From a virus, in the IMG/VR virus record IMGVR_UViG_3300036851_000134, positions 1-53,450 of that record: 53,450 nt of DNA; one strand, 5' to 3'. Numbering within the stretch: the first letter of the stretch is position 1; each line of letters starts with the position of its first letter. The translations under genes were made by a program, and so were the position numbers. The notes under the pieces were generated by a model. That model saw only the letters and a list, made by a program, of their open reading frames with translations. It was not told where the DNA came from and did no database searches. Shown piece by piece: positions 16,272-53,450 of the stretch.

Positions 16272-16648
16272 TGCTCCGGTGGGTTATATTCGTCGCCTTG
16301 TTCTTCTGGAATTAAACAGTCCACCGACTTCCCTCGGTATGTACATTTGTAGCACCACCCGAAGCCGCTGTGCTTCACGAAGTCCAGAGCATTGAGCGCA
16401 ACCCAGAGTCCTTCCAGGTCTATTTTCGCCACTTGCCGGATGCGATAGAGCACGATATCGCAATCTTTCCGTATGCCTTGCTTGTAGAGCAGTCCGCCCG
16501 TCAGCGCAACATGGCAGCCATACTTCGGGCAGATGGTTTCAATTTTGAAGCAAAGTTCGATGGCTTCGGATCGAGTCCATTGGACTTCTTCTGACAAGTC
16601 GCTAGAGGCAACCGCGGAAGCGCCGGTCTGTAGTCCGATTAATTTCAT
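16268..16648 (-). CDS. Nucleotidyltransferase-fold-like protein
   Basis: 126 residues. Residues 42-70 read ICPKYGCHVALTGGLLYKQG then IRKDCDIVLYR. A GG followed by DxD after about 10 residues is the active-site pattern of minimal nucleotidyltransferases. A later SVDCLI could supply the third acidic residue. It overlaps the helicase stop (ATGA). Substrate unknown; the assignment rests on the GG...DxD pattern alone. Confidence 0.5.
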   Translation of the reverse strand: MKLIGLQTGASAVASSDLSEEVQWTRSEAIELCFKIETICPKYGCHVALTGGLLYKQGIRKDCDIVLYRIRQVAKIDLEGLWVALNALDFVKHSGFGWCYKCTYRGKSVDCLIPEEQGDEYNPPEQ

Positions 16649-18726
16649 GCTATTGCTTCCATTGGTTTCTTCCAGCCGTTATCCGACCATGCTTGCAAAA
16701 TCTTGCTTGCTTCCGCTTTGCTCAGGTCCGTTGGGTATCCGTGTTTTTTCAACCAAATGCTTTGGCGCGGTGTGCAAGCGCCACTTGCCCAGCTCCGGAA
16801 CAGATCGCGCACGATCTGTTGTCCTTGTGCTGGTGTCAGCTTGCCCGGATCAAACCCTTGCTGCCGTAAAATGCGCTGTTGTTTTTCGGACAGTGGCGCG
16901 CCGTTTGTCCGCGCAACATTCCGTTGCGGCATTACGGCCATCGCATCAAATGGATCGATCGTTTGTGTGGTATATCGCACCTTGGCGATGATGCGCGCTT
17001 TCCGTGCGGCCTCGCGCGCCTTCCTTTCCTCAGCTTCCTTGCGCAACTCTTCCGCTGATTGCTTCAACGCTTCCAACATCGACACGCCATTTTTTGCGTT
17101 CTCAGCTTTCTTCTTGGCGCGAATGATGGCGTCATTGCCCATCTTACCGCCGAGAACATCTGCGGTCGTGATCAGCTTGTGTTTGCCGGAGTTCCCGACA
17201 AAATCGATGATTGTCGCTTTCGGTTTTACCGATAGCGCAATGGCCATGCGTCGTTCGTGCGGTGCGTCGAGTCCATCCACAACACCCGGTAATGGACGCA
17301 ACCCGCGCCCACAAATCTGTGTGTAAAGACATCGGCTCTTGGTCGGTCGCCCTTGAATGATCACTTCAACTTCGGGTGCGTCGAACCCTTCGGTTGCGAC
17401 CATGCAATTTGCGAGCACCTGAAATTTGCCAGCAGAAAAGTCCCTGATCAATTCGCGTCGTTGTTCTTTGGGCGTTTCGCCGCTGACAAACGCCGCCATA
17501 CCAGGTCGATGCCGGTTAAATATTTCACAGGCCATCTCCGCTTGTTTCACCGACGCGGCAAACAAGATCGCGCGACGTGTGCTAATCAGTTCGATAGCGG
17601 CACCGGCAATGCCTTGCACATTCCGTTCCTGTTCCATGAGCGCCGCAAGGTCCGCGCCGTTCAAATCGCCTGCGGTTGTTCGAACATGGGAGAAATCCAA
17701 ACCGCTGACATGCACGATCTGTTGTTCGACCGGCACAAGCCAGCCATCCTCGATGCCGCAAAGAATGTCGTATTTGAACGCAACGGAATCGCACACCTTG
17801 GCAAGTGCCTGTTCATCGGCACGATCCGGCGTTGCCGTCACACCAAGTATTTTTAAGTCAGGGTTCTGTTTGAAATAGTTCAGCACTTGCATGTACGACG
17901 CGGCTGGCATGTGATGGCAATTGTGGACTAAATAGCCATTAGCGAAGTAATTGTGTGCGGATTCAACTTCGAGATTGTAAACGTAACCGCCCGGACACAA
18001 TCCTCCAAATGTTCCATCACTTGTTGGTTCGAGAATCTCAATATTGTCCACCCGATCGAATTCAAGAAAAGGAGGTTTATCTGTTATGAATTTACGTACC
18101 AGGCTCCCGTCGATAAGTAAACTCGCTTTGGTCCATCTTCCGAAGGAAAGAAATGGATGCTCAGGAGTGCAGATTACGGCGTCACCCGATGCAAATTGAA
18201 TTTGCAGCAATGCGTTAGGTTTTCGTCGAAATGTCCGCGTTACGCGACGCTGGAGAATCCTCCCATCATCAACGCACCAAACCAATTGTCCGGCTTCGAT
18301 CTTTTCAATAGGAATCTCGTCAACCATTGTTCCAGCCGGGAAACATTCATCGATTATCAAGCACGAGAAATCCGTTGGTTTGAAGCGCGTCATTCGTTTG
18401 CGATCCTTGGGTCCGCTGACGAGCGTTTGCACGCTGGCAATGACAACGGACGTTGCATTGAACAAGCTCGTTTGCGCTGTGCGATCCGCCATTTCAATCT
18501 CGCACGGTATTCCGAATGCTTTTTCCAACCGATGTTTGGCTTGAAAGATCAACTCTTCGCGGTGCGCAATGACGAGCGTGCGCTTTGGCAACAGGCGGCG
18601 GATGACTTCGCAGAAGACCGTAGTTTTCCCTGTGCCTGTCCCGGCTACGACAAGCGTTGATCGCACCTTTTCCCATTCGGAAAAAATGCAGTCAACAGCG
18701 TGAGTCTGGTAGTCGCGCAGGTCCAT
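16645..18726 (-). CDS. SF2 (DEAH-type) helicase interrupted by an intein
   Basis: 693 residues before splicing, about 551 after. Motifs: Q-like LRDYQTHAV (3-11), Walker A AGTGTGKTT (28-36), motif II split as DE/CH by an intein at residues 128-269, motif III VTATPDR (about 295), motif VI QICGRGLRP (about 470). The C-terminal part is helical. It probably unwinds or remodels DNA during replication or recombination, next to primase, SSB-like and ERF genes. Removing the intein restores LIIDECHH, so the host exteins are active only after splicing. Start ATG 18726 gives MDLRDYQ, the usual opening of such helicases. Confidence 0.88.
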   Translation of the reverse strand: MDLRDYQTHAVDCIFSEWEKVRSTLVVAGTGTGKTTVFCEVIRRLLPKRTLVIAHREELIFQAKHRLEKAFGIPCEIEMADRTAQTSLFNATSVVIASVQTLVSGPKDRKRMTRFKPTDFSCLIIDECFPAGTMVDEIPIEKIEAGQLVWCVDDGRILQRRVTRTFRRKPNALLQIQFASGDAVICTPEHPFLSFGRWTKASLLIDGSLVRKFITDKPPFLEFDRVDNIEILEPTSDGTFGGLCPGGYVYNLEVESAHNYFANGYLVHNCHHMPAASYMQVLNYFKQNPDLKILGVTATPDRADEQALAKVCDSVAFKYDILCGIEDGWLVPVEQQIVHVSGLDFSHVRTTAGDLNGADLAALMEQERNVQGIAGAAIELISTRRAILFAASVKQAEMACEIFNRHRPGMAAFVSGETPKEQRRELIRDFSAGKFQVLANCMVATEGFDAPEVEVIIQGRPTKSRCLYTQICGRGLRPLPGVVDGLDAPHERRMAIALSVKPKATIIDFVGNSGKHKLITTADVLGGKMGNDAIIRAKKKAENAKNGVSMLEALKQSAEELRKEAEERKAREAARKARIIAKVRYTTQTIDPFDAMAVMPQRNVARTNGAPLSEKQQRILRQQGFDPGKLTPAQGQQIVRDLFRSWASGACTPRQSIWLKKHGYPTDLSKAEASKILQAWSDNGWKKPMEAIA
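17920..18345 (-). mobile_element. Mini-intein in helicase Walker B motif
   Basis: 142 residues (128-269 of the precursor). Block A begins CFPAGTMV after DE; block B has TPEH (Thr187, His190); the end YLVHN is followed by extein Cys270. All standard splicing residues (Cys1, TxxH, penultimate His, terminal Asn, Cys+1) are present. There is no LAGLIDADG or HNH motif and no room for one, so it is an endonuclease-free mini-intein. Codon boundaries at 18343-18345 (TGT) and 17920-17922 (AAT) were checked. Confidence 0.92.
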
Positions 18727-22958: not shown

Positions 22959-23164
22959 TTCAGGAAATCCTTTGCGCGTTCCACGGAAAGTGTTGTGGAA
23001 TCGCTGTAAAATTCCACGTCTGGCACAACGATTGTGCCGCCGATGCTGTTGGAATTCATGACGAGATGACCAGCTTTGACGGGTTGAACGTAGGTCAGGA
23101 TGCAACCGCGCCATTTGCCTGTTTTGACGGTGACGGCCTGTCCGATGGAAGGTTCAGTGTTCAT
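22955..23164 (-). CDS. 69-residue beta-rich protein
   Basis: MNTEPSIGQAVTVKTGKWRG then CILTYVQPVKAGHLVMNSN: KOW-like or SH3-like strand pattern (GQ.V.V..GKW.G). Starts directly after an AAAGGACAAC linker site. Function unknown. Confidence 0.55.
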   Translation of the reverse strand: MNTEPSIGQAVTVKTGKWRGCILTYVQPVKAGHLVMNSNSIGGTIVVPDVEFYSDSTTLSVERAKDFLK

Positions 23165-23196
23165 GTTGTCCTTTCTCCGCTCGCGCGGGCGTCGAA
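23161..23196 (-). promoter_or_regulatory. Hairpin/ribosome-site linker copy 1
   Basis: On the minus strand a GC hairpin (GCCCGCGCGAGCGG) is followed by AGAAAGGACAAC and ATG. Degenerate member of a six-copy family in front of small genes. Confidence 0.65.
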
Positions 23197-23310
23197 GCCT
23201 TGACCGGACTCCCGTCCAACACCGTGGTAACTGCGCTGCCAGCGCACCGCGCCAGCTTTCTTCGCCGCGCGCACGAACCGGCGCCATGCGTTCTTCGTCT
23301 TCGTTTTCAT
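23161..23310 (-). CDS. 49-residue basic protein ending in linker sequence
   Basis: MKTKTKNAWRRFVRAAKKAG then AVRWQRSY, very basic. Its last residues (ARASGERTT) are encoded by the hairpin and ribosome-site linker before the next gene, so the linker is partly coding here. Confidence 0.5.
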   Translation of the reverse strand: MKTKTKNAWRRFVRAAKKAGAVRWQRSYHGVGRESGQGFDARASGERTT

Positions 23311-23345
23311 TCTCTTGTCCTTTCGTGCCCGCTCTCGCGGAGTCT
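23308..23345 (-). promoter_or_regulatory. Hairpin/ribosome-site linker copy 2
   Basis: CCGCGAGAGCGGGCACGAAAG then GACAAGAGAATG with the ATG of the 49-residue gene. The hairpin is CCGC/GCGG. Confidence 0.65.
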
Positions 23346-23350
23346 CGCGG

Positions 23351-23542
23351 TCATCGGTGTACAATCACACTGTGTGTAATGCGGGCGCGTGTTGCGGCGT
23401 ACACCCGAGCTTCTTCCGCTGTGCGAAACCATTGAGTGTCGTGATTTGGTTCCGCCACTGCATACCACGGCCACGCCGGGTCTGACGATTGCCACGTGGC
23501 AATCTTGCGCTCACTGATTTGATCAGGTTCCATCGTTTTCAT
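23351..23542 (-). CDS. 63-residue hypothetical protein
   Basis: Starts MKTMEPDQISERKIATWQSS after a linker copy; contains WPWYAVAEPNHDTQWFRTAE and EARVYAATRARI. Small alpha/beta protein, unknown. Confidence 0.55.
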   Translation of the reverse strand: MKTMEPDQISERKIATWQSSDPAWPWYAVAEPNHDTQWFRTAEEARVYAATRARITHSVIVHR

Positions 23543-23580
23543 TCTCTTTTCCTTTCGCGCCCGCTCTCGCGGGCGGTTGT
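23540..23580 (-). promoter_or_regulatory. Hairpin/ribosome-site linker copy 3
   Basis: Full copy: CCGCCCGCGAGAGCGGGC followed by GCGAAAGGAAAAGAGAATG. Stem CCCGC/GCGGG with a 4-base GAGA loop. Confidence 0.75.
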
Positions 23581-23742
23581 TCACGCACTAAACACAGTTT
23601 GTTTTCCGGGTGAGGTTTCGAGCGCGAATCGCCCATTGATCCTCTGGCGAATATGCGTCCAAGTGTTGCCTCGTTTTTTGTTGGCCGCCGCCTGCCTCTT
23701 TGCCGCGGTCAGACTCTTATAGTTGTCCCAAGTCGTCTTCAT
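23581..23742 (-). CDS. 53-residue basic protein
   Basis: MKTTWDNYKSLTAAKRQAAA then NKKRGNTWTHIRQRINGRFA: helical, basic. Starts behind a linker copy (GGAGAAAGGAAACA). Unknown function. Confidence 0.5.
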   Translation of the reverse strand: MKTTWDNYKSLTAAKRQAAANKKRGNTWTHIRQRINGRFALETSPGKQTVFSA

Positions 23743-23771
23743 TGTTTCCTTTCTCCTGCTCGCGCGGGGGA
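23740..23771 (-). promoter_or_regulatory. Hairpin/ribosome-site linker copy 4
   Basis: Degenerate copy: CCCGCGCGAGCAGGAGAAAG followed by GAAACAATG. Confidence 0.6.
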
Positions 23772-23773
23772 GT

Positions 23774-23814
23774 GATTGCTCCCGCGTCCCCACCGAGGGG
23801 ACGAGGGAGCAATC
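23774..23814. other. Long perfect hairpin between small genes
   Basis: GATTGCTCCC (23774-23783) pairs with GGGAGCAATC (23805-23814), and GTCCCC (23786-23791) with GGGGAC (23797-23802), with a 2x2 internal loop. There is no U-tract on either side. It lies in the 77-base gap between two minus-strand genes and could be a processing or stability element. Confidence 0.7.
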
Positions 23815-23819
23815 TACTA

Positions 23820-24077
23820 TTATTCACAGCGCAATTCAGCGGGGTTACAGTCCACGTCTCGAATTGCGAGGAGCATTCCTGGGGTTCGTGGGGCTGATGC
23901 CCTGCGTACAAATGAATCGATGGCCTCCCGCTCAGTGCAAAAAAATTGCCCATCGCAAAAAAACGGCTTGCCGTGCGGGTGATTCGCACCAAACCGAAGT
24001 ACCTGCACGTGCCCGATTTCTGGAGTGATATTATACCACGTCGCATTGCCTTCCCGCGATTGAATCTCTGCTTTCAT
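23820..24077 (-). CDS. 85-residue hypothetical protein
   Basis: MKAEIQSREGNATWYNITPE then IGHVQVLRFGANHPHGKPFF. The mid region FFCTEREAIDSFVRRAS is helical. Starts directly behind a full linker copy. No family recognised. Confidence 0.55.
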   Translation of the reverse strand: MKAEIQSREGNATWYNITPEIGHVQVLRFGANHPHGKPFFCDGQFFCTEREAIDSFVRRASAPRTPGMLLAIRDVDCNPAELRCE

Positions 24078-24117
24078 TGTTGTCCTTTCGTTGCCCGCTC
24101 TCGCGGGCGGTTGTTCA
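24075..24117 (-). promoter_or_regulatory. Hairpin/ribosome-site linker copy 5
   Basis: Full copy: AACAACCGCCCGCGAGAGCG then GGCAACGAAAGGACAACAATG; almost identical to copy 6, 358 bases away. Confidence 0.8.
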
Positions 24118-24435
24118 CGCGATTTGTTCGAGTGCGAGCGAAACGGCGTGCAGCGCGCCGTGTGGAGCGCCGTAGTTCCGCCACTGCGATCCATGATTTT
24201 TTAACGCGCAGGTCACAGTCGCGTAGCCATTCCAGTACTGCACAGTGCCCGAGACGTGCAGCGCGCCGTATCCGCACTTTTCTGCGCCCTCAGTCACATC
24301 TACGCCCTCCGTCCATTCGGGTGTGTAGCGTTGGTCGCGCCCCGCGTTGAGGATTTTTTCCGACGCGCGCTTGATCCTGGCCTGCGTCTTGAGCGGGCTG
24401 GCTTCGCCGGTGAATTTGATCTCTCCGAGTTTCAT
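24115..24435 (-). CDS. 106-residue hypothetical protein, first gene of minus operon
   Basis: MKLGEIKFTGEASPLKTQAR opening, then an alpha/beta body with GYGALHVSGTVQYWNGYATVTC. Promoter-proximal gene of the minus-strand block, preceded by a linker copy; unknown function, and by position probably expressed early. Confidence 0.6.
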   Translation of the reverse strand: MKLGEIKFTGEASPLKTQARIKRASEKILNAGRDQRYTPEWTEGVDVTEGAEKCGYGALHVSGTVQYWNGYATVTCALKNHGSQWRNYGAPHGALHAVSLALEQIA

Positions 24436-24476
24436 TGTTGTCCTTTCGTTGCCCGCTCTCGCGGGCGGTTGTTGCC
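24433..24476 (-). promoter_or_regulatory. Hairpin/ribosome-site linker copy 6
   Basis: Full copy in the leader of the whole operon: AACAACCGCCCGCGAGAGCG then GGCAACGAAAGGACAACAATG. The stem could act as a 5' mRNA stabiliser. Confidence 0.8.
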
Positions 24477-24756: not shown

Positions 24757-25320
24757 ATGCCAGACTGGCTCGCCATCCGCACCGCCTATGTCACGGATGC
24801 TGCACTTACGCTAAAGTCTCTCGCTCAACGCTTTAATGTCCCGCTCCGTACCCTCGCAGGTTACGCCGCCCGCGGTAAATGGCATCAATCCCGCAAACTC
24901 GCCCTCCTTCCAGATGCATTAGCCTCCCAGGATGCTGCACCCATTGCACCGTCCATGGCACCACCCCGCATCGATCGTGCAAATATTGCACAAGATGCGG
25001 ATCGACGCGCCGCTCGCCTCCTCCAAGCGGCTGCCTCACCCGCTCTCTTCGTTGCTCGCGTTCAGTCGGAAGCTGTTGAGTTGCTGGACACTCTGAAAGA
25101 TAGGCGCGCCACTGAGGTAAGTGCACGAGCAACCCGCGATCAGGTCGGTGCGTGGAAGGACGTCGTGAGCGTCGCGCGGCAGGCTTACGGCCTGGACTCC
25201 GCGGACGCCAGGCCGGTTGCGGTAAGGGTCGGACTCGCGATCAGCGTGAGCAATCGCGCCGGCGTGGACGATGATCAAGCGATCGAGGCTGCCATCGATG
25301 TGAGCAGTAACCCGAGCTGA
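24757..25320 (+). CDS. Small terminase-like DNA-binding protein
   Basis: 187 residues. The N-terminus (WLAIRTAYVTDAALTLKSLA then QRFNVPLRTLAGYAARGKW) is a clear helix-turn-helix of the type found in phage small terminases that begin with a KSLAxxF.VPxxTL..YA..GKW motif. A variable Pro/Ala region and a helical C-terminus follow. The large terminase gene is 5.7 kb away with an opposite-strand block between. A different regulatory HTH protein is possible. Confidence 0.65.
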   Translation: MPDWLAIRTAYVTDAALTLKSLAQRFNVPLRTLAGYAARGKWHQSRKLALLPDALASQDAAPIAPSMAPPRIDRANIAQDADRRAARLLQAAASPALFVARVQSEAVELLDTLKDRRATEVSARATRDQVGAWKDVVSVARQAYGLDSADARPVAVRVGLAISVSNRAGVDDDQAIEAAIDVSSNPS

Positions 25321-26305
25321 GCACCGGTCGGGAAAGCAACCCGTCACGCGCGCATCGGGCCCCGACCGTCCGAGTGCGACCGCGCCGTCCAGCTGTGCGA
25401 CGCATGCTCCTCGGAGGAGGTGCCGATAGGTCAAAGCCCATTCGGCCCGGAACTAAAGATCGTTATTCCTCGCGTGGTGGTGATGCCAAGCGCGAACCCA
25501 GAAGCCCTTTTCGGTCATGGCTTGTGTATGCGTGCACCACGAGAAAATGGAACGAATTTGAACGCTGATAGCTAGACTTGTGAGCCCCACGAAAATGGAG
25601 GTATTGGGGGCGCGGGTAGCTAGAGTTACGGAATAAGCTGGCAAAGGAGATGTAGTTGGTAATGGGACAATGAACTGAGCAATGTGAATAAGCACACCAC
25701 TCCCTACGACAGAAGTGTGTAGAGGAAAGATACCTGGAATTAGCCAAGGACCGCGCTTGTCAGGGCGTTATTCTCCCTGTTAAGGGAGGGTCCGATCGGG
25801 TATCTGACGTTAACGGAGGGCGACGTGAGTGGCTTTGGGCAGTTGGGAGTGGGCATCCTGATCTGGGCAGCAGGTATGAGCTGGTAAGTCCAGAATTGGA
25901 GTCTTGGAAGATGGCCTTTGGGCACCGAAACGGAATGGTCGAGGGAAGGTCCAAGACAATTAGCTTTCTGAGAATCCGAGGCCCGCGCCGGAACTGCATG
26001 GGAGTTGCCATGGAGTGAGCGGTTTCCCGCTCCGGACATCTCAATTGAAGAACTGCTTACTATCACACGAAATGAGCGCATTGGTATTTGCTCTGCGCTC
26101 CGTCAACGTTACACACTGCCGAGTTTGAAAACCGATCCCGCTCGGCACGGGAAAACGAGCACATGCCCTGTGGTTGTTTTTGGGTCATGCGCAAACTGGA
26201 AAGTGGCGCCCCCATGTTGACAGTCGGGATTTCTCCCCGGAACTGGTGAGGGCCGTTGCCTAGGCGGTTCCCTCGGGGGCGTATTGGATTAACTGTCAAC
26301 ATGGC
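25321..26305 (+). ncRNA. Candidate large structured non-coding RNA (about 1 kb)
   Basis: No reading frame here looks like protein. Many perfect local helices occur: CGGTCGGG 25325/CCCGACCG 25361; CTCCT 25407/AGGAG 25415; CGTGGTG 25473/CACCACG 25535; AAGCC 25502/GGCTT 25519; TAGCTA 25569/25617 enclosing GCCCC 25584/GGGGC 25607; GTCAG 25759/CTGAC 25804 around CTCCCT 25773/AGGGAG 25783; CATCCTG 25854/CAGG-T-ATG 25871; TCTTG 25902/CAAGA 25952 with GGCCTT 25913/AAGGTC 25946; a three-way junction CCGGA 25988/TCCGG 26031; GCTCG 26140/CGAGC 26156; and a 13-bp helix closing 26212-26304. Two helices carry G-U pairs only if the plus strand is the RNA. Exact ends unknown. It could belong to a GOLLD/ROOL-like giant phage RNA class, which I cannot test. 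Confidence 0.6.
26212..26304 (+). ncRNA. Three-way-junction domain closed by 13-bp helix
   Basis: CCATGTTGACAGT (26212-26224) is the exact complement of ACTGTCAACATGG (26292-26304). Inside are CGGG 26225/CCCG 26236 and GAGGG 26248/CCCTC 26270 with a further CCG/CGG stem. This is the 3' end of the structured region and the strongest single helix in it. Confidence 0.75.
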
Positions 26306-26409
26306 GGTAGAAAAGCAAAAGTCAGGAATGTCGTCAAGAGGAAAAATTCATGCGACCGATCAGACAGACCCAGCTGCTCCGTTTTGATGGGAATGCGGCC
26401 TGTTTTCTG
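26306..26409. other. Non-coding tail of structured region
   Basis: 104 bases, purine-rich at first (GTAGAAAAGCAAAAGTCAGG), between the structured region and the convergent minus-strand gene. I see no gene and no convincing terminator. Confidence 0.4.
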
Positions 26410-26616
26410 TCAAGCCACTCGCCACAGACGGCATTCGGTGTCAGATATTTTTCGAGCTGCCACCTTGTATCCGCAATTTCTGGCAGCCTGCCTCCATCTC
26501 ATGTCCATGCCAAGGGGCAACACAACAGAGTCTCCTATCTCCATGGTTTTGAGGGTAGTTGAAACTAGACCAGCGCGTGATTGCTTCGGCATTGGAATGT
26601 TCTTTTCGATGTTCAT
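26410..26616 (-). CDS. Small conserved phage protein (MEIGDSVVLP type)
   Basis: 68 residues. The core LKTMEIGDSVVLPLGMDMRW then RQAARNCGYKVAARKISDTE with LWRV at the end matches a common short phage family (G-D-S-[FV], then K.. R, then RVWRV). Function unknown. Last gene of the second minus-strand block. Confidence 0.7.
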   Translation of the reverse strand: MNIEKNIPMPKQSRAGLVSTTLKTMEIGDSVVLPLGMDMRWRQAARNCGYKVAARKISDTECRLWRVA

Positions 26617-26641
26617 GTTTTGGTTGTTTTGAATCTCTGGG

Positions 26642-27160
26642 TTAACCGGTTAAATCAGGTTCAACTGCGCGGTTGGATGTAAAGTGTCCCGGTAGTCCGC
26701 ACGTCCTCAGGCATTCGGCATTTTCCTGGCCGTAGGCGATGAGCACGCTTGGCGCTCCCGCGGTCCCACCCCGTTTCCCTTCTCGCGTGTAGAAGCACAG
26801 CCGACCCCTGATCCACAGTAGCCCGGTCGCGTATTCCCACACCCACGGGAAGAATGTTTTGGTTTCAGTTCTCGCGAAAATGAGGGCGATTCCGTTTCCG
26901 TGGTTGGCGAGTCTTCGAATCCATCGTTCAGTTTCGTTGCCGTATGGCGGGTTGAGCCACACGCGCCCGAGCCACGGCTTGAGTAGCCCATTGTCCTCCA
27001 TCGTGTAGTGTTTCTTTGCCGTATCCCACGGTCTCCCGATTGGGGCGCACGGGTCGAGGTCGAAGTCTCCGAGCGCGCGGAGGAGATCGGGCGGCGTGAG
27101 CCAGTCTTCTTTGCCCGTCGTGCGGTCGTGCGCGAACCCGATATCGAGAATCTCTTGCAT
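26642..27160 (-). CDS. Phage DNA N6-adenine methyltransferase (Dam-type)
   Basis: 172 residues. EDWLTPPDLLRALGDFDLDP followed by CAP, then GLLKPWLGRVWLNPPYG with the catalytic NPPY (about residues 70-73), and W-rich strands afterwards. This is the short phage DNA N-6-adenine-methyltransferase family. It should methylate phage DNA and protect it from host restriction. The FxGxG-like cofactor loop is not obvious, as is usual in the family. Confidence 0.88.
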   Translation of the reverse strand: MQEILDIGFAHDRTTGKEDWLTPPDLLRALGDFDLDPCAPIGRPWDTAKKHYTMEDNGLLKPWLGRVWLNPPYGNETERWIRRLANHGNGIALIFARTETKTFFPWVWEYATGLLWIRGRLCFYTREGKRGGTAGAPSVLIAYGQENAECLRTCGLPGHFTSNRAVEPDLTG

Positions 27161-27454: not shown

Positions 27455-27537
27455 GATCGCGGTTCAATCAATTCTTTGTCGCGCACTTCATGCACCCAAC
27501 CTTCGCATTCTTTGCCGGCCCAGGCAACGGCCCTCAT
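27451..27537 (-). CDS. Possible 28-residue peptide
   Basis: MRAVAWAGKECEGWVHEVRD then KELIEPRS, with CGGAGCC 6 bases before ATG and a 4-base overlap with the next gene. It overlaps the 49-residue frame at 27488-27637, so only one may be functional. Confidence 0.4.
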   Translation of the reverse strand: MRAVAWAGKECEGWVHEVRDKELIEPRS

Positions 27538-31010: not shown

Positions 31011-32834
31011 TTGAAAAATCATCTTTACGGTATTCGGTGCAACACGGATCTCACGCCGCAAGAGCTTGAATTTGCTGCGTTTCTCTATGATCCGCCGGAA
31101 GGGCTCGGGAAATTTGAGCACATGCGACGCGCAATGACGTTGACGTGGCCGGCGTTGCAATGGAACGAGTGGTTAACCGAACAGATCCGGTCCCTTTGCG
31201 AGCCTGAATATGCTTCGCGTTCCGGGCGCATGATTCAACGCACGGTGGTTTGGACGGGATCGGCTGCCGCGGGCAAAACATTCGCTGCGGGCGCTTTTGC
31301 CTGCGCGTGGTTCCTTGCGGGCCGTCTTGCGCCTGAGTTCGATTCGTTTGTGCGCCTGACTTCGACCACCAAAGACATGATCGGCAAGCGGGTTTGGCCG
31401 GTTATTCGCAAATTCTACACGGAAGCCTGTGATGTGCGCGGTATTCCAAACAGCATGGGTTGTCATATGGTTGACAGCCGCAAGATGCTTCAGCACAAAA
31501 AAGGTGATGAGAAATTTTCCATTGCAGCGTTGGCGGTAAAAGACGGCGAAACTCAAAAAGCCGTTGAAAATCTGAAGGGCCAGCACGCCAGCCGCATCCT
31601 TCTGATCATAGACGAAGCGAACCTGACGCCGACCGCCATCTTCGAGGCCATCAACAACATGAAAGAAGGTTGTCTGGACCTGACTGTCCTGATCATTGGC
31701 AATGCTGAATCCAAGCTGGACAATCATGGGCGCGCTTCTGAACCGTTGAAAGGTTGGAACAGCGTCAGTGTATCCTCGGAGCGTTGGCGAACAAAAGGCG
31801 TGAAAGAATGGGGATTGGCTCCCGGGATTTGCCTGCATTTCGATGCGTTTGAATCGCCCAACGTTAAAGCGGCAAAGACGATCTTTCCGTTCCTTTACAC
31901 TTACGAAAGTTACCTTGAAAAGGTCAACGATGACGCTGCGAAAAGTCACAAGTTTTGGTCGCAAACACGCGGCTTTTGGCCACCGGAAGGATTGACCAAC
32001 ACAGTTTTCTCCGAAACGATGATCAGCAAATACGATCTGACAGGTCGTATGCTGTTCCTTGGTGACAGGATCGAGATTGCTTCGTTGGACACGGCTTTTG
32101 GCGGGGACGATTGCGTATTGCAATTTGCCGCGCTCGGAGATGTCGGCGGTGGGTTCGGGATTGAATGTCGCGCGCCCATCGTCATTCAACCAAATGCAAC
32201 CAGTGCGCACGAGATCGACTTTCAGATCGCGCGCCGGGTCATTGAAGAATGCAAGCGGCGCGGGGTGAAACCTGAACATTTGGCCGTTGACGCGACAGGA
32301 ACCGGACGCGGTGTTGCGGCGATCATTGCAGGCGAATGGGGGCAGGTGCATCGCGTTGAATACGGCGGTGCGCCCAGCAAAATGCCAAGCGGCCAAGCGG
32401 ACATGCGCCCGTCCGTTGAGGTGTATGACCGGCGTGTGACCGAGCTTTGGTTCAGCGCCCGCGAGTTTGCTGTGGGCGGTCAATTGCGCGGACTTTCGCA
32501 ACAGGCTTGCACGGAGTTTTGCAATCGCAAGTTCGATTTCAAAGGGCGCAAGTATTCGATTGAAACCAAGGAAGATTACAAGGATCGACATGGGCGCTCA
32601 CCGGACTACGCCGACAGCGTGGTCGGGCTTGTGGATCTCGCCCGCAGTCTCGGGCACGTTGCCGGGACGGTGTACAATCTCGCAGGCGCGCGTGAAGCGC
32701 AGGAAACGGCTCGTGAAGCGGATAAAGTCTACGATGACTCGCATTTGAACAGCGACCAAGGCGCAGAGGAAATGCTTGCGGAAGAAGGGATGCTTACTTC
32801 AGGAAATCAGCTTGACAACAGTTCGTTCTTTTGA
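31011..32834 (+). CDS. terL: Terminase large subunit
   Basis: 607 residues with TTG start (31011); no ATG or GTG lies upstream in the open frame. ATPase: Walker A WTGSAAAGKTF (about 82-92), Walker B ILLIIDEANL (about 197-206), coupling motif near VLIIGNAES. Nuclease: SLDTAFGGDD (about 360), AVDATGTG (about 424) and SPDYADSVV (about 529) give the metal-binding acidic residues. It packages DNA through the portal and cuts concatemers. The start lacks a good ribosome site, so the true start may differ slightly. Confidence 0.92.
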   Translation: MKNHLYGIRCNTDLTPQELEFAAFLYDPPEGLGKFEHMRRAMTLTWPALQWNEWLTEQIRSLCEPEYASRSGRMIQRTVVWTGSAAAGKTFAAGAFACAWFLAGRLAPEFDSFVRLTSTTKDMIGKRVWPVIRKFYTEACDVRGIPNSMGCHMVDSRKMLQHKKGDEKFSIAALAVKDGETQKAVENLKGQHASRILLIIDEANLTPTAIFEAINNMKEGCLDLTVLIIGNAESKLDNHGRASEPLKGWNSVSVSSERWRTKGVKEWGLAPGICLHFDAFESPNVKAAKTIFPFLYTYESYLEKVNDDAAKSHKFWSQTRGFWPPEGLTNTVFSETMISKYDLTGRMLFLGDRIEIASLDTAFGGDDCVLQFAALGDVGGGFGIECRAPIVIQPNATSAHEIDFQIARRVIEECKRRGVKPEHLAVDATGTGRGVAAIIAGEWGQVHRVEYGGAPSKMPSGQADMRPSVEVYDRRVTELWFSAREFAVGGQLRGLSQQACTEFCNRKFDFKGRKYSIETKEDYKDRHGRSPDYADSVVGLVDLARSLGHVAGTVYNLAGAREAQETAREADKVYDDSHLNSDQGAEEMLAEEGMLTSGNQLDNSSFF

Positions 32835-32953
32835 AGAATGAGCGCGTGACGCTTAACGTTTGGATCATCAAAAAGCTTGATGCGCATTGGGCCTGTCAGA
32901 CAGGTGAGCGTCACGTCTACCCAGTCCAACTTCTCAATGCGCATCTTTTTCAC
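32807..32953 (-). CDS. Possible antisense 48-residue protein
   Basis: On the opposite strand, GTG at 32953 preceded by AGG 8 bases away opens VKKMRIEKLDWVDVTLTCLT then GPMRIKLFDDPNVKRHALIL, a protein-like sequence filling exactly the gap between two plus-strand genes. It overlaps the dyads listed next, so the gap is either coding here or structural. Confidence 0.3.
   Translation of the reverse strand: MKKMRIEKLDWVDVTLTCLTGPMRIKLFDDPNVKRHALILQKNELLSS
32845..32945 (+). promoter_or_regulatory. Nested/crossing inverted repeats after terL
   Basis: CGTGACGCT (32845-32853) complements AGCGTCACG (32907-32915). GATGCGCATTG (32879-32889) complements CAATGCGCATC (32935-32945), extendable by G-U and G-C on the plus strand. 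CCTGTCAGACAGG is a DNA palindrome at 32892-32904. The first two cross, so they would form a pseudoknot or switch. The core ATGCGCAT is itself palindromic, which lowers its significance. Confidence 0.5.
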
Positions 32954-32963
32954 AAAACAACCT

Positions 32964-33596
32964 ATGGTCAAAGTAGCAAACAGAACCACCGCAATTGGCG
33001 GTGAATCACCCACAAACGGCGCTCGTGGCGGAATCGAAATCGGGATGCCGTATCGTGTGCAAGTGACAATTGAAGGCGTGTGCCCGATTTTGTTTCACCG
33101 CTGGAACTGCGAAAGCGTCGAGTCCAAGTCAAAAGCTAAAAAGGGCAGCGCAGAAAAGAAAACCGATGATTTGGAGAGTTACGTTTGGCGCAATGAACAA
33201 GAGGAATTGTGCATTCCCGGAGAATACCTGCGCGGTTCAATCATCGCCGCTGCAAAATTCCAGCAAGACCCTCGGTCGCCTCGGAAAAGCGCAATGGACT
33301 TGTTCAAAGCGTCGATTGTGTCATTGACGCCGTTAGCGAGTCTCGGTTGCAAAACGTGGGATTTTTTGGATAAACGACGCGTGGTCATTCAACGCAACGG
33401 CATTACTCGCGTGCGTCCTGCAATGGCTACCGGCTGGGTCGCGACGTTCGTTTTGATGGTGAACCTTCCCGAATATATCGATGCTCAGTTCTTGAACGCA
33501 ACGATTCAGAACGCCGGGAAACTGATCGGTCTTGCGGACTTTCGTCCGTCGTACGGCCGCTTTAACGTGACGGCGTTCGAAGTTTTGGACGATTGA
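32964..33596 (+). CDS. Conserved phage protein, possibly RAMP-like fold
   Basis: 210 residues. The core VQVTIEGVCPILFHRWNCES, then LCIPGEYLRGSIIAAAKFQQ, DPRSPRKSAMDLF, and the end LADFRPSYGRFNVTAFEVLD is a highly conserved phage family of unknown function that often lies near the terminase. IPGEYLRGS resembles the IPGSSLKG motif of RAMP (Cas7/Csm3) proteins, and a GRF loop follows; this is a resemblance, not proof. The start is uncertain (in-frame alternatives at 32877 and 32940). Confidence 0.6.
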   Translation: MVKVANRTTAIGGESPTNGARGGIEIGMPYRVQVTIEGVCPILFHRWNCESVESKSKAKKGSAEKKTDDLESYVWRNEQEELCIPGEYLRGSIIAAAKFQQDPRSPRKSAMDLFKASIVSLTPLASLGCKTWDFLDKRRVVIQRNGITRVRPAMATGWVATFVLMVNLPEYIDAQFLNATIQNAGKLIGLADFRPSYGRFNVTAFEVLDD

Positions 33597-34583: not shown

Positions 34584-36956
34584 ATGGAAGTGCCTCCTGT
34601 AACAGCAAAAACTCTCAATGCCGCCATGACCGAGCTTGCGTCTTTGGATGCCAGCGGGCGACCGCCGCGGACGCGAATCGATTCAGCTATGCAGGTGCGC
34701 GATATGTACGCTCGCGCGCGTCGGCACAACGCGCTTCGGTCCCAGCGCAATTCACTCGTCAAAGGGCTTGTGGACGGCAACCCGCCGTACGACCAGGGCG
34801 CGATCAATCGCAGTGGTCAACGGTATCGGAGCAACTTCAACAATGGCGAAGCGGAAGCGTTCCTGAATGTTGCGCTCACGGCATTTTATGATTTGTTCAG
34901 CGAAGTTGAAACGCACGCGACTGTCGAGGTGGACGATTACAACAACCCGGATGCGCACAAATGGAGTGAATGTCTGACTCGCAATTTCGAATGGTTACAG
35001 CGGCAGGACGAAGATTTCGATTTCAACATTCAACTTTCGCAGCATGACATGGTTTTGTACGGTGCCGGGCCGCATCTGTTTGAAGATCCTTTGGATTGGA
35101 GAAGTCGCCCGGTGCGTTTCGAGGACATGCTGTTGCCGCGTTGGTCGGAGTCCAATGTGACCCGGTGGGAATGGGTCATTTTCTTTTATCAATATACAGT
35201 CAGCCAGCTTTACGAATTCATCAGTGACGAAGACGCGGCGCGCATGGCTGGTTGGGACGTGGCTGCGGTAAAGCGCAGCATCATGCTGTGCAGCGATCAG
35301 ATCGGAGCGGACCCGCTCGGTCGCAACTGGCAGAAGTGGGAAACATGGCAGCAAGCATTGCGCAATAACGATCTTTGGTTGTCTGATCGCGTGCGAATGG
35401 TGAGAACGATCCGGATGCTTTACAAGGAATTCGCCAAGGACGGCGCGCCATCGACGGTGAGTGAGGTGTGGGCGGACGAGAATGATACGGCCAACGACAC
35501 GTTTTTGTTTCAGAAAGAGAACGCATTCGAGAACATGAAACAGGCGTGTTGCCCGTTCTTTTACGATCGCGGCGACGGCACGGCGCATTCCGTTCGCGGT
35601 CTGGGCGTGAAGATGTACAAACTGCTTGTGGCGAAAATGCGATTGCAAAACGGCATGGTGGATTCGGCTTTTGCCCGCGGTTCCGTGATGCTTAAGTCAT
35701 TGGGTGGCGGTGTAGGTGCGCAACAGCTTTCCATGACGCACCTCGGGCCATATACCGTGATGCCTGCCGGGTTTGATTACGTTGCGAATGTGGCGGTGCC
35801 AGGTGTGTTGGACGCGTTCAAGGTTGCTTCTTTGGACATGGACAACACGTTGACGGCGAATTTGTCGCAGTATCGGTCGCGAGTTGAGTCTGCGCAGGCC
35901 AAGCAAGGTAACCCGCGCACAGCTTACGAGGTCAATCAGGACGTTCAACAGCAGAGCGCACTGACCAAAACCCAGATCGCGCGATACTACGAGCAGTTGG
36001 ATGATTGGTATTCGGAACGGTTCCGGCGCGCGTTGAGCAGCGAGATTCCAGGCAGCACAACCAACAAATGGCTCAAGCTCGCCTTGGACTTTCAGAAGCG
36101 TTGCAAGGAAGATAGCGTGCCGCTTGAAAAGGTGCGCGACAAATGTCATGTGCGCGCGACTCGCGCGAGCGGTCAAGGATCGAGTTTCGTTCGGATTCAG
36201 GCGCTCAACATGATCCTGAACACGGTATGGCCGACGTTGCCGGAGGAAGGCAAACAAGCGGTGGTTCGCGATCTGGTTGCGGCTGCGGTCGGGCGCGAGC
36301 ACGTCAATCGGTATGCGGGCGGTTACGACAATTACATGTCGCCGACGGAAGCCGAGAATCGTTGGGAGGCGCAACAGGAAAACAACGACTTCGCGCAAGG
36401 CGGCAATTCGCTTGTGACAGGTCAACAGAATGATCTGTGGCATCTGGATGAGCATTTCGGGTTCTTGAATGCGGCGGCGGGAACGTTGCGGGAAGGCGGC
36501 GATCCGATGAAAGTCTGGACGACATTGGACACCGGCGGGAAGCATGTTGTTCAACATTTGCAACGGATGGCGCAAGATCCGAAGCGCAAACAGCAGGTGC
36601 AATTTTTCATGCTGCAATTCAAGCAACTCAGCGCCGTGACGGATGAACTTGGCAAGCAGATTCAGCAAGCTCAGGAACAACAGGCGCAAGCGCAACAACA
36701 GGCGATGATGCAGGATCGCGAGATGCAAACGGCGGTGATGAAACTTCAGTTGCAAGCGCAGAAAGATCAGGCAAACCTCGCGCTCAAGAGAGAGAAACAG
36801 GATGAAACGTTGCGGTTAAAAGCCGAAAACCAACAGTTCAACCAGGCGATCACGGACGCCAAGACCGCGCACGAAATTCAGACCGGCACAGTGAAAACGG
36901 CTGTGGCAGTGCAAACGCAACGGCAAAAAGCCGCGGCAAAACCGACTGCAAAATAA
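34584..36956 (+). CDS. Portal protein
   Basis: 790 residues. A typical portal wing/stem/crown pattern is seen: NSLVKGLVDGNPPYDQGAIN near residue 55, a long central region with the AYEVN and SALTKTQIARYYEQLDDWYSERFR clip/stem signature around residues 450-490, and a long Gln-rich coiled-coil C-terminus from about 680 (QQAQEQQAQAQQQAMMQ) like the barrel of podovirus portals. It should form the dodecameric DNA channel at the head vertex. Size is on the large side of the family because of the C-terminal tail. Confidence 0.85.
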   Translation: MEVPPVTAKTLNAAMTELASLDASGRPPRTRIDSAMQVRDMYARARRHNALRSQRNSLVKGLVDGNPPYDQGAINRSGQRYRSNFNNGEAEAFLNVALTAFYDLFSEVETHATVEVDDYNNPDAHKWSECLTRNFEWLQRQDEDFDFNIQLSQHDMVLYGAGPHLFEDPLDWRSRPVRFEDMLLPRWSESNVTRWEWVIFFYQYTVSQLYEFISDEDAARMAGWDVAAVKRSIMLCSDQIGADPLGRNWQKWETWQQALRNNDLWLSDRVRMVRTIRMLYKEFAKDGAPSTVSEVWADENDTANDTFLFQKENAFENMKQACCPFFYDRGDGTAHSVRGLGVKMYKLLVAKMRLQNGMVDSAFARGSVMLKSLGGGVGAQQLSMTHLGPYTVMPAGFDYVANVAVPGVLDAFKVASLDMDNTLTANLSQYRSRVESAQAKQGNPRTAYEVNQDVQQQSALTKTQIARYYEQLDDWYSERFRRALSSEIPGSTTNKWLKLALDFQKRCKEDSVPLEKVRDKCHVRATRASGQGSSFVRIQALNMILNTVWPTLPEEGKQAVVRDLVAAAVGREHVNRYAGGYDNYMSPTEAENRWEAQQENNDFAQGGNSLVTGQQNDLWHLDEHFGFLNAAAGTLREGGDPMKVWTTLDTGGKHVVQHLQRMAQDPKRKQQVQFFMLQFKQLSAVTDELGKQIQQAQEQQAQAQQQAMMQDREMQTAVMKLQLQAQKDQANLALKREKQDETLRLKAENQQFNQAITDAKTAHEIQTGTVKTAVAVQTQRQKAAAKPTAK

Positions 36957-47470: not shown

Positions 47471-47554
47471 CTAGCCTTATCTGTCCTCATGTGCCCCCTA
47501 GAGTACCACCCGTTCGCATGAAACAAGAGCCTCGCCAGGACCAAATCACCATCG

Positions 47555-47575
47555 CCACGGAGGACATAGACCATG
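47555..47575 (+). repeat. Linker copy 4
   Basis: CACGGAGGACATAGACCATG. The HGGHRP frame upstream is open but has no start codon, as if a gene was lost here. Confidence 0.85.
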
Positions 47576-47791
47576 ACACCAAAAGCACTTGCCAAAATAC
47601 CTGCACCGTCTGAATGGATAGTGACGCGCACGATAAGGGAAACCTACGGAGCAGTTGGGCGCACCCGACAGGAAGCAATCGCGTGGGTAAACGAACGATC
47701 TCCCGAAGCCGACACGGTGACAATACTTACCGAGTCCGCAAAGAAAGTGCGAAGCTCGAACGATCAGGACCATGGGGGACATAGACCGTGA
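47573..47791 (+). CDS. 72-residue cassette protein (MTPKALA type)
   Basis: MTPKALAKIPAPSEWIVTRT then EAIAWVNERSPEADTVTILT. Preceded by linker copy 4; ends NDQDHGGHRP from linker copy 5. Its first seven residues and DNA are the same as the gene at 48246, while the rest differs. Confidence 0.65.
   Translation: MTPKALAKIPAPSEWIVTRTIRETYGAVGRTRQEAIAWVNERSPEADTVTILTESAKKVRSSNDQDHGGHRP
47768..47790 (+). repeat. Linker copy 5
   Basis: CATGGGGGACATAGACCGTG with GTG start. Synonymous changes keep DHGGHRP. Confidence 0.85.
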
Positions 47792-48003
47792 CAACACCAG
47801 CAACAACGTGCCATTTCTGGCAGGGTTTGTGCGGCTACAAAGCTGTTGCCGAAGTCAAGCAGCGCAACGGGAAGTGGAAGCCAATCTGTGGCCAACATCT
47901 CGCCGGATTAAAAAAACGCAAACCGCCATCGTGGATACCCGAAACCCGAATGCTGCCGAATGAGGCGCTACAGCGCCAAGACCACGGAGGACATAGACCA
48001 TGA
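47788..48003 (+). CDS. 71-residue zinc-finger cassette protein, GTG start
   Basis: GTG 47788 overlaps the stop (GTGA). CHFWQGLCGYKAVAEVKQRN then WKPICGQHLAGL: Cys/His likely zinc-binding, related to NrdR-like/small ribbon patterns. Ends QRQDHGGHRP (linker 6). Confidence 0.6.
   Translation: MTTPATTCHFWQGLCGYKAVAEVKQRNGKWKPICGQHLAGLKKRKPPSWIPETRMLPNEALQRQDHGGHRP
47980..48002 (+). repeat. Linker copy 6
   Basis: CACGGAGGACATAGACCATG; the most consensus-like copy together with copy 4. Confidence 0.9.
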
Positions 48004-48176
48004 GTGATGAAAGGGTCATAAAATCAGCACGATTCAATTACTTCGGACAAAAGCTATTGGTAGACATCGGCTCCAATGGCTCTATTCGATTTAAAATCGG
48101 AGACTCCAACGTGCAACTTTCAGAGTCTGAATTTAAGTCATTGATGCGATTATATTGTCAGGACGCCGCGAACTAG
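48000..48176 (+). CDS. 58-residue cassette protein
   Basis: MSDERVIKSARFNYFGQKLL then VDIGSNGSIRFKIGDSNVQL and a helical end. Starts with linker copy 6; lacks a linker tail. Unknown. Confidence 0.6.
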   Translation: MSDERVIKSARFNYFGQKLLVDIGSNGSIRFKIGDSNVQLSESEFKSLMRLYCQDAAN

Positions 48177-48192
48177 CGTTCGATGGCGCAAT

Positions 48193-48249
48193 GTGACCTG
48201 CAAGAAATGCCTGAGCCACTGTAAAAAACACGGAGGCCACAAGCCATGA
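48193..48249 (+). CDS. 18-residue zinc-knuckle peptide/remnant
   Basis: GTG opens VTCKKCLSHCKKHGGHKP, whose tail is linker copy 7. VTCKKCL resembles the start of phage zinc-finger proteins, so this may be a truncated gene fused to the linker. Confidence 0.35.
   Translation: MTCKKCLSHCKKHGGHKP
48226..48248 (+). repeat. Linker copy 7
   Basis: CACGGAGGCCACAAGCCATG, followed by ACACC.AAAGCACTTGCC as in copy 4. Confidence 0.85.
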
Positions 48250-51277: not shown

Positions 51278-51404
51278 GGATGAAGTTATGTTGCGCTTTG
51301 CCGAATCGGTTTCAAAAGACATGAATAGCGCGCCGTTGATGGCGGCGTTTCTCATGCGCGAGATCATGCGAATGGAAGCCAAGGAACAGGTGGAAACGGA
51401 ATGA
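51150..51404 (+). CDS. 84-residue helical protein
   Basis: MKTKPLTREQARERLLNVAT then SVAFSALKENWASMITDGKG EDEV: helical, charged. Stop overlaps the next ATG. Function unknown. Confidence 0.55.
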   Translation: MKTKPLTREQARERLLNVATQYSVAFSALKENWASMITDGKGEDEVMLRFAESVSKDMNSAPLMAAFLMREIMRMEAKEQVETE

Positions 51405-51547
51405 TTTGCAACGGCCACATGGCAACAGCCCGGCAGCGTAGTCGCGCTAAAACTGCCGTTAATTCACGGTCGCTCCGTGAGATCCGTTCAATGACCTACA
51501 AAATCGAGGTTGCTGGTCAGCCGAAAGGTGCGGAAAATCGTATGTGA
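51401..51547 (+). CDS. 48-residue peptide
   Basis: MICNGHMATARQRSRAKTAV then NSRSLREIRSMTYKIEVAGQ: basic; ATGA overlap. Last gene before the capsid control region. Supported mainly by coupling. Confidence 0.45.
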   Translation: MICNGHMATARQRSRAKTAVNSRSLREIRSMTYKIEVAGQPKGAENRM

Positions 51548-51590
51548 CCGTTGCGCTTTAGACCAGCGGGCCTACATCCGTTGGTCACGG
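51548..51590. other. Leader part of capsid control region
   Basis: A small dyad (GACC/GGTC near 51561 and 51582) next to the terminator; nothing else visible. Confidence 0.4.
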
Positions 51591-51635
51591 ACCCGCCGCA
51601 AGTTACTTGTCCTTTCTTGTGGCGGGTTTCTTTTT
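51591..51635 (+). terminator. Rho-independent terminator
   Basis: ACCCGCCGCAAG (51591-51602) pairs with CTTGTGGCGGGT (51616-51627) with one G-U pair, followed by TTCTTTTTG. It ends the scaffold/methyltransferase transcript before the capsid gene. Confidence 0.88.
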
Positions 51636-51639
51636 GACC

Positions 51640-51917
51640 GAATACCGTTAACGATAAAGGTTGGCCTTTCTGCGCCCTGAATTTTGTTGTTGACGTAACG
51701 TTAACGTTTGCGTTATCGGTAACGTGAAGTCGAAGTTCGGTCAGGTGCTTCCCTGACAATCGGCTCGATAGCTTGGATGGCCTCAAGCAGATCGCGGGTG
51801 CAACGCCCGGATGAGGTATCCGAGCAGATCTCCCGCAAGTTTAACGGCTCTGGTATGCCGCTTCATCGCGAGCATTTCCTTTAGCCAAGTCCTTAATGGG
51901 CAAACAATTCTGCTTGT
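51640..51917. promoter_or_regulatory. Capsid control region with TTAACGATA-like sites
   Basis: TTAACGATAAAGG at about 51648 is the same core (TATCGTTA in reverse) as the three sites at 24580-24736. GTAACGTTAACG and GTTATCGGTAAC follow near 51700-51725. The stretch contains no good gene. Probably a promoter/operator region for the capsid gene, but I cannot fix a promoter by eye. Confidence 0.5.
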
Positions 51918-53156
51918 ATGGCTTGTCAAACAGTATTCGATGCGTTCCGGGTTGCGACTGAATACCTGGGACCTGAAATCTATCGGTTGGCGTCTTTCCG
52001 CGATCCTTGGCTCAACGTTGTGCCGCGTGGAATCTTCGCTCCTCACTCTGGAACCACACATTCCGTGTTCCGGATCAACAAAAACGAACCCACCACAGAA
52101 GATCAATGCGGCCAAACTGTGACACTGGCCAACGGATCGAACAGTGGCGCTTGCGCACCGACGTTTACGGACGTGTCGATCGGGTTCGATGAGTTCACCT
52201 ACATTCCGCGGCGGTTGGCTTGGCGCGGTCCTTTGTTCTGCAAAGACGACCAGTATTTCAACCACGCTCCGGATGAGTTCATTGACGGTTACGTCCAGGA
52301 ACTTGCGGATTACGTCCGCAAAGACCTGAACAACCATCTGTACACGCATTACACGCGGCGTGTGCCGATCTACATTGCGGACCAGAACTGTTTCAGTGTT
52401 TCGACGACGGCGGTTGGTTATAACGGAAGCAACGGTTGCAATCCGCTCGCCGCGCCGCTTGCTCAGTCGGAACTGACCCAGGACATGCTCGACACGCTGG
52501 CGCTGCAATTGATTGCCAATCGCGCGACGGACCCGGACAGTAACGGTTTCGTAAATCTCGGGCCAGACGGTCCGTTGTTTACGTTGCTCATCGGTCTGGA
52601 AGCCAGCCAACTGATCGCGCTCAACAACAGCGAATTCCGTCAGGACATTCGTTGGGCTGAACCGTCGTTGCTGCTTAAGCGGCTCGGTGCCGGGAGGCAG
52701 ATCAAGAACTTCCAACATGTACCATGGGTGACGCCTGCGCGTTACACATGGGTTGGCGGGACGTATACCCGGGTGCCGACGTTTGTGTCTCAAGCGTCCA
52801 CGAAAGGAACGCGCACCGTTGTCAATCAGAACTGGATTGATCCGGTTACAGCGCCTTACGAGGCGGCGGTGGTTCTTTCGCCGCACGTTATGACCAGTGA
52901 ATTGATCAAGCCGAGTGCTCGTGTGGGTGCTGTGGATTGGCCGGACACGAACTACATGGGTGAGTGGATGTGGCGCACTGGTCCCGAGGCGATTGCGAAT
53001 CTCGCCGGGGACGCTTGCTACGATCCGTTGCACAAGCAGGGACGGCATTTCGCGGAGTTCATGCACGGTTTGCGCGTGGGCGCGCTGCCGCAAGCGGGTG
53101 CTCTGGTGTTGTTCAGTCGTTGCGCTCGTGCCTGTAACACGGTGTCTTGCACGTAA
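51918..53156 (+). CDS. Major capsid protein (probable)
   Basis: 412 residues, beta-rich, no Lys-rich coiled coil, beginning MACQTVFDAFRVATEYLGPE. It is the first gene after its own terminator and control region, follows the scaffold, and is a typical capsid size. I recognise no specific HK97 subgroup motif, so the call rests on position, size and composition. Confidence 0.65.
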   Translation: MACQTVFDAFRVATEYLGPEIYRLASFRDPWLNVVPRGIFAPHSGTTHSVFRINKNEPTTEDQCGQTVTLANGSNSGACAPTFTDVSIGFDEFTYIPRRLAWRGPLFCKDDQYFNHAPDEFIDGYVQELADYVRKDLNNHLYTHYTRRVPIYIADQNCFSVSTTAVGYNGSNGCNPLAAPLAQSELTQDMLDTLALQLIANRATDPDSNGFVNLGPDGPLFTLLIGLEASQLIALNNSEFRQDIRWAEPSLLLKRLGAGRQIKNFQHVPWVTPARYTWVGGTYTRVPTFVSQASTKGTRTVVNQNWIDPVTAPYEAAVVLSPHVMTSELIKPSARVGAVDWPDTNYMGEWMWRTGPEAIANLAGDACYDPLHKQGRHFAEFMHGLRVGALPQAGALVLFSRCARACNTVSCT

Positions 53157-53235: not shown

Positions 53236-53450
53236 ATGAAAGAAAACGCTCATGGTTATTACGGTCGCGCCAAGGGAATGAAAGCGACTAATCCGATGGA
53301 TTCCATGATGAAAAACTATCCGTCAACGGGTCATGCGACGAAGCCCGCGCCGAACATGACAGCGGCGGATTTGAGAGCGGCAGCGGCCAAGAAACCGTAT
53401 CGATCAAAGAAGATGGTGGCAGGCTGGCGTTCGATGGGGTTGGGTTCAAC
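53236..53450 (+). CDS. 5' part of split small basic protein
   Basis: ATG 53236 opens MKENAHGYYGRAKGMKATNP and continues across the contig end to the stop at 149; 78 residues in all. Basic, Met/Lys-rich. See the entry at 1-149. Confidence 0.8.
   Translation, partial: MKENAHGYYGRAKGMKATNPMDSMMKNYPSTGHATKPAPNMTAADLRAAAAKKPYRSKKMVAGWRSMGLGS
53324..53450. repeat. Terminal direct repeat, copy 2
   Basis: Identical to 1-127. See copy 1. Confidence 0.95.

Follow-up and report, generated by a model that had tools for sequence, protein, structure and literature searches.

What does a phage genome hold in about a kilobase of DNA that carries no gene? We asked this of positions 25321-26305 of IMG/VR record IMGVR_UViG_3300036851_000134, which a sequence-only reading had put forward as a kilobase-scale structured non-coding RNA. 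The window analysed here is the entire record, 53,450 bases long. Its ends form a perfect direct terminal repeat of 127 bp (1-127 is identical to 53324-53450), and we therefore take the genome to be that of a complete, circularly mapping phage.

Late genes lie on the plus strand and early genes on the minus strand. The interval falls within the early cluster, with a lone plus-strand gene before it and the 3' ends of minus-strand genes after it. The genes of this setting are:

Up to 14220, plus strand: tail genes, late.
Between 14760 and 30931, minus strand: early genes, including helicase, ERF, primase-like and methyltransferase genes.
24757-25320, plus strand: gene for a helix-turn-helix protein, tentatively a small terminase (phrog_1206, E 4e-4, residues 2-46 only), with a clear period-3 signal.
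26410-26616, minus strand: probable small gene, an ORF of 68 aa at the right border of the gap.
26642-27160, minus strand: Dam-type DNA adenine methyltransferase, the convergent neighbour (PF05869, E 5e-11; phrog_111, E 2e-36).
31011-32834, plus strand: TerL, late.
34584-36956, plus strand: portal-like late gene, named tentatively (family match weak or none).
51918-53156, plus strand: capsid-like late gene, named with the same reserve.

The interval does directly follow 24757-25320, as the sequence-only reading had it, but the name small terminase is tentative, the weak phrog_1206 match being limited to the N-terminal helix-turn-helix. On the other side, the product of 26410-26616 has no family match; judging from its sequence, we consider it probably a genuine phage protein, so that the true gap is likely to span about 25321-26409.

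Two further features of the early cluster were seen. The helicase gene (16645-18726, minus strand) contains an insert resembling an intein (Pfam Intein_splicing, E 6.5e-11), and several small early ORFs of the minus strand have a repeated leader in front of them in the region 23164-24473. Copies of this leader lie at about 23164, 23301, 23538, 23737, 24072 and 24430; read on the minus strand, the leader has a GC hairpin such as GCCCGCGAGAGCGGGC and then AAAGGACAACAATG, and two of the copies share an identical stretch of 44 nt.

Codon scores, period-3 analysis and six-frame profiles all confirmed that 25321-26305 contains no credible gene on either strand. With a codon-usage gene caller, 25321-26641 is the largest coding gap in the genome, which we count in favour of an RNA, and the best ORF within it has a codon score of 1.1, compared with more than 4 for every called gene. 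For the region taken whole, the period-3 signal is 0.45, and its mean in 297-nt windows is 0.90; coding windows have about 3.3, the upstream gene 4-6 and shuffles 0.98. Six-frame translations of the interval matched no protein family in Pfam or PHROGs. A pseudogene was rejected, as both the six-frame profiles and the period-3 analysis were negative. We conclude that the interval is non-coding on both strands, which we likewise count in favour of an RNA.

Such a stretch could simply be a spacer between convergent genes, either inert or acquired recently, or what is left of a gene after decay has made it unrecognizable, with helices that arose by chance and were picked by eye. The lack of residual period-3 signal and of any protein match argues against this explanation, and we also count against it that phage genomes rarely keep an unused kilobase of DNA. 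Another gap in the coding map, 775 bp at 47471-48245, is strongly A-rich on its plus strand (AT skew 0.34) and folds worse than its shuffles.

Taken as a whole, the interval does not stand out by its folding. The sequence-only reading had emphasized more than a dozen helices, a number that proves to be at chance level: the 985 bases contain 23 perfect stems of at least 6 bp, compared with 18.5 +/- 4.3 in shuffles, and 38 of 200 shuffles reach 23. The full 985 nt folds with a z of only -0.85 to -1.4, and when the z scores of five consecutive 250-nt windows are averaged, the interval is surpassed by 83 of the 351 stretches into which the genome was divided for comparison. An inert spacer would explain the helix number, and this rank also speaks for one. 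The two parts of the interval, however, differ:

25321-25720: non-coding, without folding signal (z +1.22 on the plus strand and +0.33 on the minus strand, 150 shuffles each; period-3 at the shuffle level).
25721-26310: candidate structured RNA that folds better than chance (z -3.41 on the plus strand, -3.43 on the minus strand).

The proposal of a kilobase-scale structure thus survives for 25721-26310 (z about -3.4) and fails for the full 985 nt and for 25321-25720, whose lack of structure again fits an inert spacer. By contrast, 25721-26310 lies in the extreme tail of folding in this genome, which argues against a spacer. It folds better than its shuffles, with none of 150 on the plus strand and one of 150 on the minus strand folding as well, and it ranks fifth lowest among 181 genome windows on the plus strand and second on the minus strand. 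Its borders were set after the helices had been seen, which inflates the z somewhat and which we count against an RNA. An unselected grid window at 25666 ranks third of 181 on the plus strand (z -3.50), and on the minus strand the grid window reaches a z of only -2.13. Segments of rRNA treated in the same way gave z scores of -1.1 to -3.9, a range that includes 25721-26310, so its fold is as strong as that of real RNA. In addition, base pairs of the plus strand over all 985 nt have a pair-probability confidence within the range seen for rRNA and phage K lnc002, a point for the RNA reading, and some coding windows of the genome fold equally well, a point against it. On balance, we consider an inert spacer or gene remnant rather unlikely.

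Strong folds also occur elsewhere in the genome. The strongest 590-nt plus-strand fold is the window at 51331 (z -4.65), which takes in the 513 bp left uncoded ahead of the capsid-like gene (51405-51917); this gap has, by eye, an apparent intrinsic terminator, ACCCGCC...GGCGGGTTTCTTTTT, and no Rfam match above threshold. The two strongest local 250-nt plus-strand folds are at 23721-23970, in the leader-repeat area, and at 32871-33120, just after TerL (z -4.3 and -4.1).

Within 25721-26310, several nested helices are present as earlier described:

25728-25805: three-way junction with an outer helix (25728-25737/25796-25805), an inner helix (25748-25752/25789-25793) and the hairpin CTCCCT-GTTA-AGGGAG (25773-25788).
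25901-25957: perfect 8-bp helix GTCTTGGA/TCCAAGAC (z -2.92 plus, -1.80 minus), which on the plus strand encloses a hairpin.
26017-26032, minus strand: GNRA-tetraloop hairpin GAGCGG-GAAA-CCGCTC.
26212-26304: 13-bp helix CCATGTTGACAGT/ACTGTCAACATGG, closing around inner hairpins.

This 13-bp helix is real. All other local perfect stems in the window are shorter, and just 2 of 800 shuffled versions of the region match its length. The domain around it (26205-26310) has a z of -2.50 on the plus strand and -3.14 on the minus strand, and the junction domain (25725-25815) has a z of -3.37 and -2.04, respectively.

From which strand would an RNA be made? G-U pairs had been read as favouring the plus strand, a bias that is lost once composition is controlled for (25721-26310 then has a z of -3.3 plus and -4.0 minus); we rejected it as strand evidence because it is a by-product of plus-strand composition. 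The two strands of 25721-26310 fold nearly equally well, the minus strand slightly better, whereas the sense strand has the better fold, by more than 1 z unit, in seven of ten control RNA segments, and this equality counts against an RNA. The remaining hints conflict, which we also count against it. All three GNRA/UMAC hairpins, GAGCGG-GAAA-CCGCTC, GGGA-GAAA-TCCC and CTCCCT-UAAC-AGGGAG, lie on the minus strand, where such loops make up 3 of 10 tetraloops compared with 0.1 of 4.5 in shuffles, in itself a point for an RNA. The plus-strand composition of 25721-26310 (G 32%, C 23%) instead leans to the plus strand.

Strand-neutral folding is what inverted repeats in DNA would give, and the interval may act at the DNA level, with repeats that bind protein or melt as part of a replication origin or of a packaging (pac/cos) site. 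A position directly after a small-terminase-like gene would suit such a site. However, the strong helices differ in sequence and include no repeated binding-site unit and no iteron, GC skew tracks gene direction without an origin-like turn specific to the interval, and 590 nt is long for a site of this kind. We regard a DNA-level site as unlikely.

Symmetrical Watson-Crick hairpins would also form in transcripts entering from both sides, and the flanking genes are strictly convergent, as would fit a long structured 3' untranslated region, or a bidirectional terminator or antisense region, between convergent plus-strand and minus-strand early genes. Yet no strong hairpin has a U tract, the three terminator-like sites are weak and close to the chance number (3 compared with 2.2), and the interval is much longer than such a role needs, making this explanation the least probable of those we considered and very unlikely. 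The weak terminator-like sites weigh against an RNA as well, as does the finding of no promoter-like site.

The homologue search suggested with the original proposal found none for the interval in viral contigs, genome contigs, phage records or plasmid records, and we count this against an RNA. When the interval was compared by BLASTN (word size 11) with 50,697 phage records and 72,556 plasmid records, only chance matches appeared, and twelve back-translated patterns made from the interval retrieved no homologue in two scans of viral contigs and one of genome contigs. Because these patterns are exact and about 24 bases long, they miss diverged RNAs, and the searches may pass over records very close to the window, so that absence from the collections searched is not absence in nature. 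Proteins of the phage were also used as queries. The small-terminase-like, TerL (plain and motif-weighted), portal and capsid proteins found no relative in the viral contigs, and TerL found none in bacterial genomes; the motif-weighted TerL query consisted of the real protein plus an artificial row altered outside the motifs, whose sole purpose was to guide which search patterns were chosen. Among phage records, TerL had one distant match, and portal and capsid had none. By these sequence comparisons, the phage is without a close relative in the collections searched. The Dam methyltransferase has five relatives with 70-86% identity; their loci have at most one or two other mobile-type genes in common and contain no copy of the interval, only chance-like matches of 22 nt. 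A near-identical inverse copy of 19 nt at 27518-27536 was rejected as being at chance level (BLAST E 0.85).

Comparison with Rfam, also suggested at the outset, matched no family to the interval. Neither strand of 25200-26700 had a match at E values up to 5, including to group I and II introns, phage pRNA, RNase P and tmRNA, and the whole window had none at the gathering score. A search of the window with the RNase P family was empty, and a search of the whole window for tRNAs and tmRNA found none. Single-family searches of the window for GOLLD and ROOL were empty too, a result of little weight alone, since they found no match in any control genome and the GOLLD control genomes hold no member. 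Judged by covariance-model searches of the whole Rfam library, the interval shows no sign of membership in GOLLD or ROOL.

We favour, tentatively and at somewhat less than an even chance, the reading that the phage encodes a structured non-coding RNA here, with a length of about 590 nt (25721-26310) and not 985 nt. A DNA-level site and an inert spacer, taken together, are as likely as this reading. The RNA would be transcribed as a single molecule whose fold is kept by selection. If made from the plus strand, it would be reached by read-through from the upstream helix-turn-helix gene and form the 3' portion of that gene's transcript; if made from the minus strand, it would be part of an early transcript running through the methyltransferase genes. 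In either case we infer that it would work as RNA rather than as a message, perhaps in the role of a scaffold, decoy or regulator. That it represents an undescribed class of structured phage RNA of about 600 nt, unrelated to GOLLD and ROOL and encoded between a small-terminase-like gene and early genes in a lineage that lacks close relatives among the collections searched, is possible but doubtful.

To our knowledge, few large structured phage RNAs have been described, and what they do is not understood. If true, an additional class, unrelated to these and encoded next to a packaging-type gene, would offer a new way into that question. At present, a single genome supplies the candidate, whose structure signal is strand-neutral and narrower than first proposed, and its main value is as a precise target, 25721-26310, for homologue or RNA-seq searches.

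How would this candidate compare with the large phage RNAs already described? GOLLD RNAs often lie near tRNA islands, an association that is common but not obligatory, and ROOL RNA forms a homo-oligomeric cage. GOLLD (RF02032) is phage-borne and non-coding, with many members longer than 800 nt (PMC12286853). The interval resembles it in the first two respects, but has no match to the model, lies in a genome without tRNAs and shows a folding signal over only about 590 nt. ROOL (RF03087) is likewise phage-borne and non-coding, and its model of 574 positions is similar in length to the structured part of the interval, which differs in having no model match and no tRNA nearby. Phage K lnc001 and lnc002 are intergenic phage RNAs of kilobase or sub-kilobase size that were demonstrated by RNA-seq and adjoin tRNA genes (PMC9241854). 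The candidate RNA of the present interval would be of similar size and intergenic kind, and the folding excess of lnc002 is comparable to that of 25721-26310.
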